A stretch of DNA of 58,229 nucleotides from Natrinema thermotolerans DSM 11552 (GTDB taxonomy: Archaea > Halobacteriota > Halobacteria > Halobacteriales > Natrialbaceae). The position numbers were made by a program, and so were the translations under genes. The first letter of the stretch is position 1; every line of letters begins with the position of its first letter. Shown here piece after piece: positions 46,351-51,325 of this stretch. The DNA is taken from positions 1 to 58,229 of the forward strand of contig AOIR01000058.1 in assembly GCA_000337115.1 (NCBI GenBank). The letters run 5' to 3'. A model generated the notes under the pieces. It worked only from the letters and a program-made list of their open reading frames with translations. It made no database searches and was not told the origin of the DNA.

Positions 46351-47475
46351 TCAGCCGGAATCGCTTGACTCCTCGCCCTCGACCGGCTCGGCATCGACGA
46401 CCAGCGGCTCCTCCGGCGGGACGGCGATCGACTGCTCTAACACCGAGGCCCGTAGCGTCGGCTTCGAAGCCGTCGCCTCCTGTCGGTAGTCGTCGTCGAT
46501 CCGGTCCCCGCGGACCCCGCGTGGCGTCAAGTAGTCGCCGTCGACCTCGAGCCCGGCCGCCTCACAGAGCCGGCGCAGGACCGACCGCGCCCCCTCGGTG
46601 GTGATCGCCGGCGGCGCGATCGCACGCTCGCGGGCGAGTTCCCGGGCCGTCGAGGTCTCGAGCAGCGACTCGATCTCTGCTTCGTCGTGGCCACGCTCAG
46701 CGAGGACCGTCCGCACGCGGCGGGCGATCGACGGGGCGTGGCCGGTCGGGAACAGCGGCCAGTCGTTCGCGGGCGGGTCCAGTACGATCCGATACCGACG
46801 CAGCGGCGTCCGCGCTCGGGCCGGGAGAGGGACATCCTCGAGGCGCTGGGACTTGCCAAGCACGCGGATCGTCCCCGTGTAGAAGTCCACGTCGTCCCAC
46901 GTCGCGCCGGTGCGGCGGTCGTCGTCGGGGACCCGGAACAGCTCCGATCCCCGGACCGTCGAATGGGCGAGGACCGCCACCATCGCGTACTCGCGCAGGC
47001 GGGTGCGGCGCTCGCTCGTCGACCGGGTCCCCGATTCGAGCGCTCGCTCGCGGACGTGGCGCTCGAGTTCGCGGCGCTGGTCGGCCGTCCACGAGTCGCT
47101 TGTGGGCCGGGCGTCGGCGGCCGGCAGCGCCGCCTCGGCCCGGTCGGTCGCGGCGGGATTGGTCTCGAGGATGCCGCCGCGAACGCACCACGAGAGGAAC
47201 GCCCGGACCACGGCGTAGTAGGTGCCGGCGGTCGAGGCGGTGTACTGTCCACGCTCCGTCCGGCGGCGAAGTTCCGCTGCGTAGGCGCGCATGTGATCGA
47301 CTGCAAGGGCGTCGATCGATCGGATCCCGTGGTCGGTCTCGAGCCACTCGGCCCACCGCCGCAGGATCGACTCGGCGTTGGAGGCGTAAGCACCCGCGCC
47401 GGAGCCGTCGGGATCGCCCACCGCCTTGCGCTGGATGTAGGTGTCGACCGCATCGGTGATCGCGACGCCGGTCAC
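46351..47475 (-). CDS. Tyrosine recombinase-like protein lacking most catalytic residues
   Basis: A 374-residue XerC/D-like protein. Residues 5-110 are the SAM-like core-binding domain (AESILRRWAEWLE, STAGTYYAVVRAFLSWCV). The catalytic half keeps Arg-I (STVRGSEL, about residue 175) and the beta-hairpin Lys (VLGKSQR, about 213). The HxxR box reads TPRGVRG, without the His. The expected LRH(x)n and Tyr nucleophile region reads LRASVLEQSI, without His or Tyr. Strand transfer is therefore unlikely, and it may be a DNA-binding relic or regulator. GTG start at 47475 overlaps the stop of a 35-residue ORF. Confidence 0.8.
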   Translation of the reverse strand: MTGVAITDAVDTYIQRKAVGDPDGSGAGAYASNAESILRRWAEWLETDHGIRSIDALAVDHMRAYAAELRRRTERGQYTASTAGTYYAVVRAFLSWCVRGGILETNPAATDRAEAALPAADARPTSDSWTADQRRELERHVRERALESGTRSTSERRTRLREYAMVAVLAHSTVRGSELFRVPDDDRRTGATWDDVDFYTGTIRVLGKSQRLEDVPLPARARTPLRRYRIVLDPPANDWPLFPTGHAPSIARRVRTVLAERGHDEAEIESLLETSTARELARERAIAPPAITTEGARSVLRRLCEAAGLEVDGDYLTPRGVRGDRIDDDYRQEATASKPTLRASVLEQSIAVPPEEPLVVDAEPVEGEESSDSG

Positions 47476-47580
47476 GGCGCGATCACCCGCCCGACGCCCG
47501 CGTCTGTCGCCCCGGATCGCCGTCGCCCAGTCCGATCCCGCCGGTCGGCACGACTCTCGAGGGTGACGCCAGTGGTCATC
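47472..47580 (-). CDS. Possible 35-residue leader ORF of the recombinase-like gene
   Basis: The ATG at 47580 (MTTGVTLESRADRRDR and so on) lies 28-33 nt below a TTTA-type box (47608-47613) and the ORF ends in a GTGA overlap with the recombinase start. The transcript probably begins here, so the main gene would be translated by coupling. The remainder of 47581-47785 is non-coding and holds the divergent promoters. Confidence 0.4.
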
Positions 47581-47785
47581 GGTTCGTGTGTTCCTGTTCC
47601 ACGGTCCTAAATCTGTGTTTCGAATCCACACCGGTCGAAAAAACTGCGATCACACGCGAGCGCGGGCCGGCGACGGAATCCGGCCCGTCCGCAACCGTCG
47701 GGGACCTACCCACTCGTCCTTGGCGGCCGGCTCGATATCCAGAATTAAGTACACTGGCTGATAATTTTTCGATAGTGGGTAGTGA

Positions 47786-49432
47786 ATGACACGATCGATC
47801 ACCGTACGAATGCGTCAGGCTCTCCAAATCGTACGAATTGAGCGGCGGCGCGCCCGACGGCGGCTCGGTCGATCATCGGCGTGGCGCACGATCCTCGTCG
47901 TGGCACTCGGTTCGGCCGCCGTACTCTTCGGGGTTGGTGCGTACGAGGTCGGCCGATCGTTACGGCAGGGAACCGCCGCTCTCCCCCTCGAGACGATACA
48001 CGTCGCCACGGTCTCGGGGTTTCTCACGCTGGTTTGGGTATTCGATCGACGCACGTCGACGGTAATGGAGCGCATCGAACCCGCGTTGCTTCTTACAAGC
48101 GTTCCGACTCGAACGGTCGCGCTCGGCACCGTCGGCACGGTCGTCGCCGGGATCGCCGTTCCGCTGTCGCTGCCCGCCGTCTGTTTCGCGGCCGGGCTCG
48201 CTGTCGGACACCAATCCCTGTTAGGATTGATTACCGTCTTGCTCGCCGGTTTCGGCGGCGTCGCGCTCGCAGCGCTGGTCGGTGTAACGCTGAGCCTCGG
48301 TCGGGAACTCGCTGCCCTCCGATCGCCCCGAATCCGCCGATACAGAACGCTTCTGTACGCGGCGGGATTCGCGGCCCTCGTGACCGCGTGGTTCGTACTG
48401 GCCAGTGGTGCCGTCGGTTTGGACCGTCTCGTCTCGTGGCTTCCGGTCGTTCCGATCACCTGGATCGCCGATCTCGGTCTACTCGGACTGACGGGGTCCG
48501 AGCCGGTCGGCCGCCGTCCTATCGGCGCGCTCTGTCTGTTCGGCGTTGGACTCCCGCTCTGTACAGCCGTGGCGATCAGGCTCGCTGACCGAATCTGGCA
48601 TACCGATCCGGTCGGGTCCGGAACGGTCCACCGCTCGCGGTCGCTTCTCGGACCCGGGCTCGCAACGTGGTTGTTCGGTCGCTGGGTTTCCCGGCCCGTT
48701 CTTGCCGTCGCCCGAAAGCGATGGCTTCAGGAACGGCGTGTCCCCCGGGGCCTGTTGACGGCGGGATACATGCTGCTCATCCTGCCGATCGTCTATCTAC
48801 CGCTTCTCGCTGCCGGCGAGATACTGGCGGTCACACCGATTCTCCTCGCGTTCGTCCTCGCCGTCGGGACGGGCCTTGCGTTCGGACTCGAGTTACTCAG
48901 CGTCGAGTATCCCGCGCTCCCCCTGACGCTTTCCGCCGCCTCGAGCCGCCAGTTCGTCCGCGGGACCGTCCTTGCCGGAACCGCGGTCGGCGCGCCGGTG
49001 ACGGTAGCGATAACCGCCGTTGCCGGGGTGGGAAGCCCCCTCGGCAGCCTCGAGGCGACCCTGACCGCCCTCGCGACCGTCCCCCTCTGTCTCTGTGGCG
49101 TCACCGTCGCTGCAGCGATCGGCATGGACGTGTCATATCGCGACTTTCGCCCGGTCCCGATCCCGTTCGTCGCCACGACCGTCTACTCGGAGACCGGTCG
49201 ACGGTCGTTTCTCAAGCTTGCTGTCGTGATGACACTCGTCGGGCTCGTCTGCCTGCCGGCGCTCACGGGGTATCTCTCGCCTGTGAACGAGCCGCTGTCG
49301 ACGGGACTCGGGGTCTCGATACCGACCGTTCGCCTGCTGTCGCTCGTCGGAACGGTCGCACTCGCGATCGCGGTCTCGGCGGTTTCCTACCGGCGGGCGG
49401 TGAGGGCGTTCGAGGAGTATACGATTCCATGA
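47786..49432 (+). CDS. Polytopic membrane protein, ABC-2 permease-like
   Basis: A 548-residue protein with roughly 12 hydrophobic helices in two halves, separated by a basic loop near residues 285-330 (FGRWVSRPVLAVARKRWLQE). The cytoplasmic N-terminus is highly basic (IERRRARRRLG). The half-and-half layout resembles ABC-2 type exporters, but no ATPase gene is adjacent. It faces the halocin-like gene tail to tail across 115 bp and may export or give immunity to that peptide; this is inference from position. Upstream AT-rich boxes (attaagta, gataattttt) mark its promoter. Codon choice is less GC-biased than in the antiporter genes. Confidence 0.6.
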   Translation: MTRSITVRMRQALQIVRIERRRARRRLGRSSAWRTILVVALGSAAVLFGVGAYEVGRSLRQGTAALPLETIHVATVSGFLTLVWVFDRRTSTVMERIEPALLLTSVPTRTVALGTVGTVVAGIAVPLSLPAVCFAAGLAVGHQSLLGLITVLLAGFGGVALAALVGVTLSLGRELAALRSPRIRRYRTLLYAAGFAALVTAWFVLASGAVGLDRLVSWLPVVPITWIADLGLLGLTGSEPVGRRPIGALCLFGVGLPLCTAVAIRLADRIWHTDPVGSGTVHRSRSLLGPGLATWLFGRWVSRPVLAVARKRWLQERRVPRGLLTAGYMLLILPIVYLPLLAAGEILAVTPILLAFVLAVGTGLAFGLELLSVEYPALPLTLSAASSRQFVRGTVLAGTAVGAPVTVAITAVAGVGSPLGSLEATLTALATVPLCLCGVTVAAAIGMDVSYRDFRPVPIPFVATTVYSETGRRSFLKLAVVMTLVGLVCLPALTGYLSPVNEPLSTGLGVSIPTVRLLSLVGTVALAIAVSAVSYRRAVRAFEEYTIP

Positions 49433-49547: not shown

Positions 49548-50354
49548 TTACCAGAACTGTTCGATACCACACTTGGCGGCACAGCCGGCCGCGGTACCAC
49601 CGATACAGACCGCACAGGGGGCACAGCTGACTCGAGTCGGGTCGGCGACACACACCTGACACGGGGTCGCACAGAAGGTACCCCACGTGATACAGTTCAC
49701 CCAGCAGTCGATCGCCGATTCCTGCGTGGTGATCCCGTCGGACTGTCCGGCCAGACTGTACACGGATCCCAGTTCGGCTCCGTCGATTTCGGCGATGAGA
49801 AGGGTATCGGCACCGCTTTCCAGCGTCGCGGAAACGAACACCCTCGAGACTCCCGACTCGAGGTCGCGATGGGCGGCCGCGTCGGCCGTATCGACCGTCG
49901 CCACCTCGCCGTTCTCGAGGGCTTCGGTCCAGTCGTCACTGGCTTGCAGCGTCTCCAGCGCCTCGGTCGTGACTGCGTCGCCGAGAACGAGGTTTTCGAC
50001 GCGGATCTCGCCATCGTCACGTCGCGCTCTGACAAGGGTGTTTTCGCCCGTCTTGATTTCGGCGACGTCCGCTTCGTCGTTGTACGCGAAATGCTCGGCA
50101 TCGCCCTCGATGGGGACCTGTACCCACCGTTCGGTCCGTACCTGTGTTTCGGTCGCGTCTTCGATTGCGATCGAGTCCGGGTCGACACCGGCCGTTTTCA
50201 GCGCCGTTCGAGAGACGTCCCGATCGAGCGCTGTTTCGGCGTCCGTCGTCGAGACGTCTCCGGAACTGGCCTGTACGTTTCCGATTCCAGCAACGCCGGC
50301 ACCTGCAGCGATGCCGACGCTCTTGAGCAGCTTTCGGCGGTTAATGTCCGTCAT
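49548..50354 (-). CDS. Halocin C8-like precursor (Tat-exported, 10-Cys C-terminal peptide)
   Basis: A 268-residue precursor. A twin-arginine signal (NRRKLLKSVGIAAGAGVAGIG) is followed by an acidic domain of about 180 residues (35-210). The final 53 residues (216-268) contain ten Cys at about 217, 221, 228, 232, 235, 244, 247, 250, 258 and 262, and few charges. Halocin C8 is known to be made the same way: a Tat-type precursor whose N-terminal part confers immunity and whose 76-residue C-terminal peptide carries ten Cys. The Cys spacing and sequence differ from those of halocin C8, so the peptide may be a new member. A role other than a bacteriocin-like toxin is possible. Divergent from the FilR1 regulator. 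Confidence 0.75.
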   Translation of the reverse strand: MTDINRRKLLKSVGIAAGAGVAGIGNVQASSGDVSTTDAETALDRDVSRTALKTAGVDPDSIAIEDATETQVRTERWVQVPIEGDAEHFAYNDEADVAEIKTGENTLVRARRDDGEIRVENLVLGDAVTTEALETLQASDDWTEALENGEVATVDTADAAAHRDLESGVSRVFVSATLESGADTLLIAEIDGAELGSVYSLAGQSDGITTQESAIDCWVNCITWGTFCATPCQVCVADPTRVSCAPCAVCIGGTAAGCAAKCGIEQFW

Positions 50355-50539: not shown

Positions 50540-51325
50540 ATGTGTGTCCCCGATACCGATACCCTCGCAGCCGTCCTCAACGCGAGACACGCCTGTCTCC
50601 GTGCGCTGATCGACCGTCCGCAGGCAAAGCGCGATCTCGTCGAGACGCTCGAGATTCCGCGCTCGACGCTCGATGACATCGTTCGCGAACTCGAGGACGC
50701 CGGACTCGTCGAGTACAGGGACGGAACGTGGAGTCCGACGCATATCGGTCGGTTGGCCCATCGTGCGCATCGTGAGTACTTAGAGCGGTTGGAGTGTTTG
50801 ATCGACGTCGCTCCGGTACTCGGGGAACTGGATCCCGAAAGCGAGATCGGCTGGGCGGTTATCGACGGTGCGGACGTTCACGAGACGCACCCGCACGTTC
50901 CGGACGCGGTGATGCCAACGGTTCTCGACCACGTCGAGGCGGCGACGACGGTCCGAATCGTGACGCCACGACTCGTGGCCGGATACGGCGACGAACTATA
51001 CCGACGCGGCGTAGCCGGGCAGAACGCCTCGATCGAGCTTATCGTCCCTCCGGCGGTCGACGACTGGATCCGGTCGGAGCATTCGGTGGTCGCGACGGAA
51101 CTGTTCGACGATCCCGCCGTCGATGCGTTTCGCGCTTCCATCCCGTTTTCCGTCGGAATCTGGATGTTTGACGACGTGCGTGCGGGCGTTACGGTCTTCA
51201 CCGAACGAGGGATCGCTGGACTCATCGTTACCGACACGCCCGCCGCCCTTACCTGGGCCGAACAGCGCTACGAGTCCGTCAAACAGGCCGCAGAACCCGT
51301 TTCACTCCCCGACGAGGCCCTCTAG
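50540..51325 (+). CDS. Winged-helix regulator with FilR1-type C-terminal domain
   Basis: A 261-residue transcription factor. Residues 8-85 are a winged helix (LRALIDRPQAKRDLVETLEI, STLDDIVRELEDAGLVEY). The C-terminal part (about 95-255) matches the methanogenesis regulator FilR1 domain found in many haloarchaeal regulators: VRIVTPRLVAGYGDELYRRG, then FSVGIWMFDDVRAGVTVFTE. The domain resembles a ligand-binding fold; the ligand is unknown. The shared 185-bp spacer makes the halocin-like gene its most likely target. Confidence 0.85.
   Translation: MCVPDTDTLAAVLNARHACLRALIDRPQAKRDLVETLEIPRSTLDDIVRELEDAGLVEYRDGTWSPTHIGRLAHRAHREYLERLECLIDVAPVLGELDPESEIGWAVIDGADVHETHPHVPDAVMPTVLDHVEAATTVRIVTPRLVAGYGDELYRRGVAGQNASIELIVPPAVDDWIRSEHSVVATELFDDPAVDAFRASIPFSVGIWMFDDVRAGVTVFTERGIAGLIVTDTPAALTWAEQRYESVKQAAEPVSLPDEAL

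Follow-up and report, generated by a model that had tools for sequence, protein, structure and literature searches.

A probable microhalocin precursor on the halocin C8 plan, with a distinct ten-cysteine peptide, in Natrinema thermotolerans

The Precursor Gene and Its Neighbors

The window, by which we mean the whole 58,229-nucleotide stretch of Natrinema thermotolerans DSM 11552 DNA analyzed here, contains a gene for a 268-aa precursor that lies between an ABC-type permease and a divergent regulator. The features of this locus are as follows.

46351..47631, minus strand: XerC/D-like tyrosine recombinase next to the cassette; possible sign of a mobile island
47786..49432, plus strand: 548-aa permease of the ABC type, convergent to the precursor gene; putative efflux or self-immunity function
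49548..50354, minus strand: precursor gene, ATG start, 268 aa, made up of a twin-arginine (Tat) signal, a two-unit middle domain, and a ten-Cys peptide
49551..49721, minus strand: predicted mature peptide, residues 212-268, 57 aa, with ten invariant Cys
49722..49733, minus strand: ITTQ junction motif at residues 208-211, with a putative cut after Q211
49734..50267, minus strand: acidic middle domain, residues 30-207, two units in the AlphaFold2 (AF2) model; putative inhibitor or immunity part
50268..50354, minus strand: Tat signal, residues 1-29 (NRRKLLKSVG), just under the TIGR01409 cut-off; predicted signal end
50540..51325, plus strand: divergent regulator, 261 aa, with HVO_A0261_N and FilR1_middle domains; homologues lie beside precursors of both families discussed below

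The N-terminus of the precursor, MTDINRRKLLKSVG..., is a Tat signal with an RR motif and a hydrophobic core, to which TIGR01409 gives 16.4 bits against a cut-off of 16.7. Residues 30 to 210 are acidic, with a charge of -29, and are free of Cys. All ten Cys are found in the last 53 residues (216 to 268), at positions 217, 221, 228, 232, 235, 244, 247, 250, 258, and 262, a segment in which 3 residues are acidic and 2 are basic, with a GRAVY of +0.68. The chance of at least ten Cys in 53 residues is about 1e-10 or less at a Cys content of 0.7 to 1%. An initial annotation of this DNA had described a Tat signal followed by an acidic middle and by a 53-residue C-terminus that is hydrophobic, has almost no charge, and holds ten Cys, and each of these is borne out on the 268-aa ORF. 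It was also correct that the Cys spacing is different from that of halocin C8 (3-6-3-2-8-2-2-7-3 in the precursor versus 2-7-3-7-13-7-8-8-5).

The ORF is a genuine and conserved gene, with relatives recovered in protein searches from Halorussus halobius (58% identity in the best segment) and Halocatena pleomorpha (48%), as well as from Natrialbaceae, other haloarchaeal families, and a Halorubrum plasmid. In an alignment of ten sequences of this precursor family, the ten Cys are invariant in every one, and the sole invariant residue outside the C-terminus is G181. The C-terminus is also under stronger purifying selection than the rest of the protein, with dN/dS values of 0.12-0.23 versus 0.32-0.39 in diverged pairs; the near-identical pair L029/L030 holds too few differences to be informative. 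A search with the C-terminus only found it in 10 of 391 haloarchaeal genomes, spread over three families, and added no genome to those from the full-length search. The precursor gene is therefore a rare and patchy accessory gene. No relatives were found in the viral contigs scanned, a PHROGs scan of the precursor gave no match, and of the family models run against it only Tat models matched.

In the AF2 model, the middle domain is made up of two units of paired helices and a sheet, residues 36-124 and 126-202, with pLDDT mostly between 70 and 93 and the helix pairs predicted at residues 36-55 and 126-148. An internal repeat between the units is suggested by the predicted structure and is unsupported by profile comparison, in which 7 of 100 shuffles scored as high. 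The ten-Cys peptide modeled alone has a pLDDT of 50, and for this reason we propose no disulfide pairing. Searches of solved structures with the precursor family, the peptide, and the permease returned nothing convincing. The best Foldseek match to the full precursor model (E 0.05) was judged to be noise, and the cystatin and BLIP-like folds returned by VIA-align, at Z 5-7, are within the chance range of that tool.

Relation to Halocin C8

Halocin C8 is described as the best-characterized halocin at the molecular level, most halocins never having been fully sequenced. The Tat pathway exports its 283-aa precursor, from which HalI and a peptide of 76 aa are then formed (PMC11509114). This precursor, ProC8, and the one in the window are both Tat precursors of about 280 aa in which an acidic, Cys-free N-terminal part is followed by a hydrophobic C-terminal peptide with ten Cys. 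They differ in the length of the peptide, about 57 aa as predicted for the window and 76 aa for halocin C8, and in the middle domain, whose two predicted units are unlike halocin C8. The 76-aa sequence used here, which we take to be that of UniProt P83716, is found letter for letter, ten Cys included, at a locus (L100) in a genome of the window's genus, Natrinema.

Two curated models define the halocin C8 family by sequence, TIGR04449 (halocin_C8_dom) for the peptide and PF22862 (Hac8_like_N) for the N-domain. TIGR04449 does not match the 268-aa precursor at E<=1, and it scores 46.7 and 49.1 bits on the true members L038 and L041 (cut-off 24). PF22862 also gives no match to the precursor, while reaching 1e-44 and 3e-51 on L038 and L041, its cut-off being missed as well by some TIGR04449 members such as L098. 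With both models silent, the precursor is outside the halocin C8 family as defined by sequence. The genome of the window (G000) does carry two further true C8-type genes recognized by TIGR04449, on contigs C38 (22611-22823) and C31 (69111-69323; L106 and L107). A profile comparison of the ten-Cys C-terminus with the halocin C8 peptide, which the initial annotation had asked for, left homology undetectable, as the match was no better than to shuffled columns, with 11 of 100 shuffles reaching the same score.

When the second unit of the middle domain was compared by hhalign with the N-domains of C8-type precursors, the score was 20.1 (E 0.0046 over 64 columns), with a probability of 7.7%. None of 100 shuffles scored as high, the shuffle maximum being 13.0, and the reversed profile reached 10.8. 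The case for this match rests on the shuffles, and given the low hhalign probability we read it as suggestive of remote homology between the second unit and the HalI part of C8-type precursors. The N-terminal helix-loop-helix of HalI is reportedly essential for immunity, by the title of Mei et al. 2008 as cited in PMC11509114.

A further link between the two families is found at the junction before the peptide. Of 28 precursors from both families, 12 carry the pattern [VIL][STA][TIV]Q on the N-terminal side of the first Cys of the peptide, no more than 25 residues away, and elsewhere in the precursors it occurs 2 times in 5385 residues, or about 0.009 per 25 residues; the motif was spotted first and counted afterwards. 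Written as [VI][ST][TI]Q, it is an unusual junction common to both families, and its strict form is absent from 6 of the 10 sequences of the 268-aa precursor family. In the C8 relative L112, the motif aligns with the known N-terminus of halocin C8 (VTTQ/IDVTGC versus ..PA/DIDITGC, the slash marking the junction). The position of ITTQ in the window precursor points to cleavage after Q211 and to a mature peptide with a computed mass of about 5.89 kDa in reduced form and about 5880 Da when fully oxidized. Haloarchaeal precursors for which activation by proteolysis has been documented include HalH4 and HFX_0892/HmHapP (PMC12893001). As would be the case for the window precursor, both are secreted and the activating cleavage is thought to take place outside the cell, with an active N-terminus released from HFX_0892 and a C-terminal fragment from HalH4 (PMC12893001); the likeness drawn here is one of plan.

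The Regulator and Permease Cassette

As at a number of halocin C8-type loci, a FilR1-type regulator and an ABC permease adjoin the precursor in the window, and both are present at L100, the locus encoding the exact C8 peptide. Regulator homologues adjoin both precursor families, and the best-scoring ones in seven genomes searched are those at precursor loci. Among loci fetched by the precursor only, some of them closely related to one another so that the counts are not all independent, permease homologues adjoin 10 of the 12 belonging to the 268-aa precursor family and 9 of 22 C8-type loci. Genomes of about 4 Mb carry between 1 and 6 such permease genes. The permease family has no Pfam match, and the 548-aa membrane protein is identified as an ABC permease because a CcmA-like ABC ATPase is found directly before or after its homologues in several loci. 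Across the two precursor families, this ATPase is 57-76% identical. A dedicated ATPase is absent from the window, the nearest one in this genome being on contig C3 with a permease of its own. In the permease tree, a C8-like locus of Halobacterium salinarum is sister to a Halorussus locus of the 268-aa precursor family (100/99) and is nested among the permeases of that family, a pattern that would result if the cassette had stayed in place while its precursor was swapped for one of the other type.

Three loci have lost part of the precursor and kept the permease intact. In G106 (L033) and G115 (L034), the precursor is a relic made up of its last 38-39 residues, with the ATPase intact as well in G115, and in G090 (L025), the precursor lacks its N-terminal part. 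The simplest reading of a decayed precursor beside a retained permease is that immunity was kept after the weapon was lost, which makes the ABC permease a putative immunity gene. In bacteria, ABC immunity of the LanFEG type against lantibiotics and other bacteriocins consists of an ATPase and a membrane subunit encoded next to the bacteriocin gene. The cassette is alike in having ABC genes linked to a predicted bacteriocin-type gene and kept after its loss, and differs in that the window's permease belongs to a family outside Pfam whose function is assigned by inference. As a marker for halocin loci, the wider permease family was tried and rejected: 20 paralogue loci were without a Tat and Cys-rich precursor, the same outcome as for 20 arbitrarily chosen control loci, and so the wider family is not diagnostic.

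Recombinases of the same cluster as that in the window are also found near the cassette in L025, L032, L033, L034, and L039, which suggests a mobile or integrated island. L039, from N. thermotolerans A29 (CP031304), is a near-identical locus with permease pieces at 97-99% identity, where the precursor as well as the permease is interrupted by frameshifts; these frameshifts may be an assembly error rather than decay.

Proposed Function and Alternatives

Taken together, the precursor plan, the ten Cys, the junction motif, the remotely HalI-like middle domain, and the common cassette indicate that the system very probably works in the manner of halocin C8. We consider it probable that the 268-aa gene encodes a microhalocin precursor on the halocin C8 plan, with a peptide that has no detectable homology to halocin C8. 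The best reading of the sequences is a distinct microhalocin family with a predicted peptide of about 5.9 kDa held by five disulfides. This agrees with the initial annotation, which had proposed a halocin C8-like and possibly distinct microhalocin; the plan, the ten Cys, the junction, and the cassette favor that proposal, with the qualification that the protein is not a member of the C8 sequence family.

On this model, Tat would export the precursor in a folded state, and an extracellular protease would cut near the ITTQ junction. The peptide so produced would be hydrophobic and about 57 residues long, with the ten invariant Cys expected to form the five disulfides, and once released it may attack the membrane or surface of competing haloarchaea. 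The acidic middle domain, by its homology, would either hold the peptide inactive or protect the producer. The linked permease, working with a dedicated ATPase in other loci, may export the peptide or clear it from the membrane of the producer, and the divergent FilR1-type regulator presumably governs expression.

Alternatively, the ten-Cys peptide could be a signal that related cells perceive by way of the ABC transporter or the FilR1-type regulator and that controls the cassette or some cell-cell behavior. The tight and often divergent linkage of regulator and precursor would fit such a role, as would the many peptides of this build per clade. However, ten-Cys signals of 57 aa are rare, the decay of precursors beside retained permeases suits immunity better, and the cassette is common to halocin C8, a proven antimicrobial, so that we regard signaling as unlikely. 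There is a still smaller chance that the precursor is a true halocin C8 family member, so highly diverged that its peptide has been rearranged beyond recognition. The shared plan and cassette and the HalI-like unit (hhalign 20.1, probability 7.7%) would be explained in this way, and C-x2-C-x7-C-x3-C is present in both peptides, but the two peptides carry this spacing at opposite ends, 11 of 100 shuffles equal the peptide comparison, and neither curated model responds.

It is also highly improbable that the C-terminus belongs to a cell-surface redox or metal protein as an extracellular CxxC-type domain that binds a metal or cofactor and is never released as a peptide. The CxxCxxC steps and the ten invariant Cys are reminiscent of such domains, and Tat export suits folded cofactor proteins, although haloarchaea use Tat as a general route of export. 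By the initial annotation, its proposal would have to be rejected if the C-terminus matched a known family of zinc- or metal-binding domains; such a match was looked for in Pfam, NCBIfam, and, at E<1, solved structures, and was not found. In addition, the alignment has no conserved His in the Cys-rich part, and the junction motif and halocin-type cassette argue for the microhalocin reading instead.

Wider Meaning and Related Loci

More tentatively, and on balance doubtfully, the cassette of regulator, permease, and ATPase could serve haloarchaea as a general carrier for exchangeable precursors, in which a shared HalI-like immunity or chaperone domain is retained and one ten-Cys peptide takes the place of another, unrelated one. 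The window peptide would then be the founder of a second, structurally independent class and may also signal to its own regulator. A second ten-Cys class with a common cassette would give genome miners a handle that is independent of the peptide sequence, namely the regulator, the permease, and the junction motif. It would also mark the ABC transporter as a possible immunity partner, beyond the single gene that, by the title of the Sun 2005 paper, serves both production and immunity of halocin C8.

Other loci show related arrangements. L036 (G112, contig C17, 2864-9983) encodes four Tat-signal precursors with Cys-rich C-termini in about 7 kb, with no match to a curated halocin model among those scanned, and is a possible multi-peptide halocin locus. 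The Halorubrum trapanicum plasmid pCBA1232-01 (L032/L040, L104) carries three pairs of precursor and regulator, each precursor ending in a different ten-Cys sequence. Both precursors of L032 and that of L104, along with L110 from another genome, have an N-terminal extension (DDGGGCxET-like) before the Tat motif.
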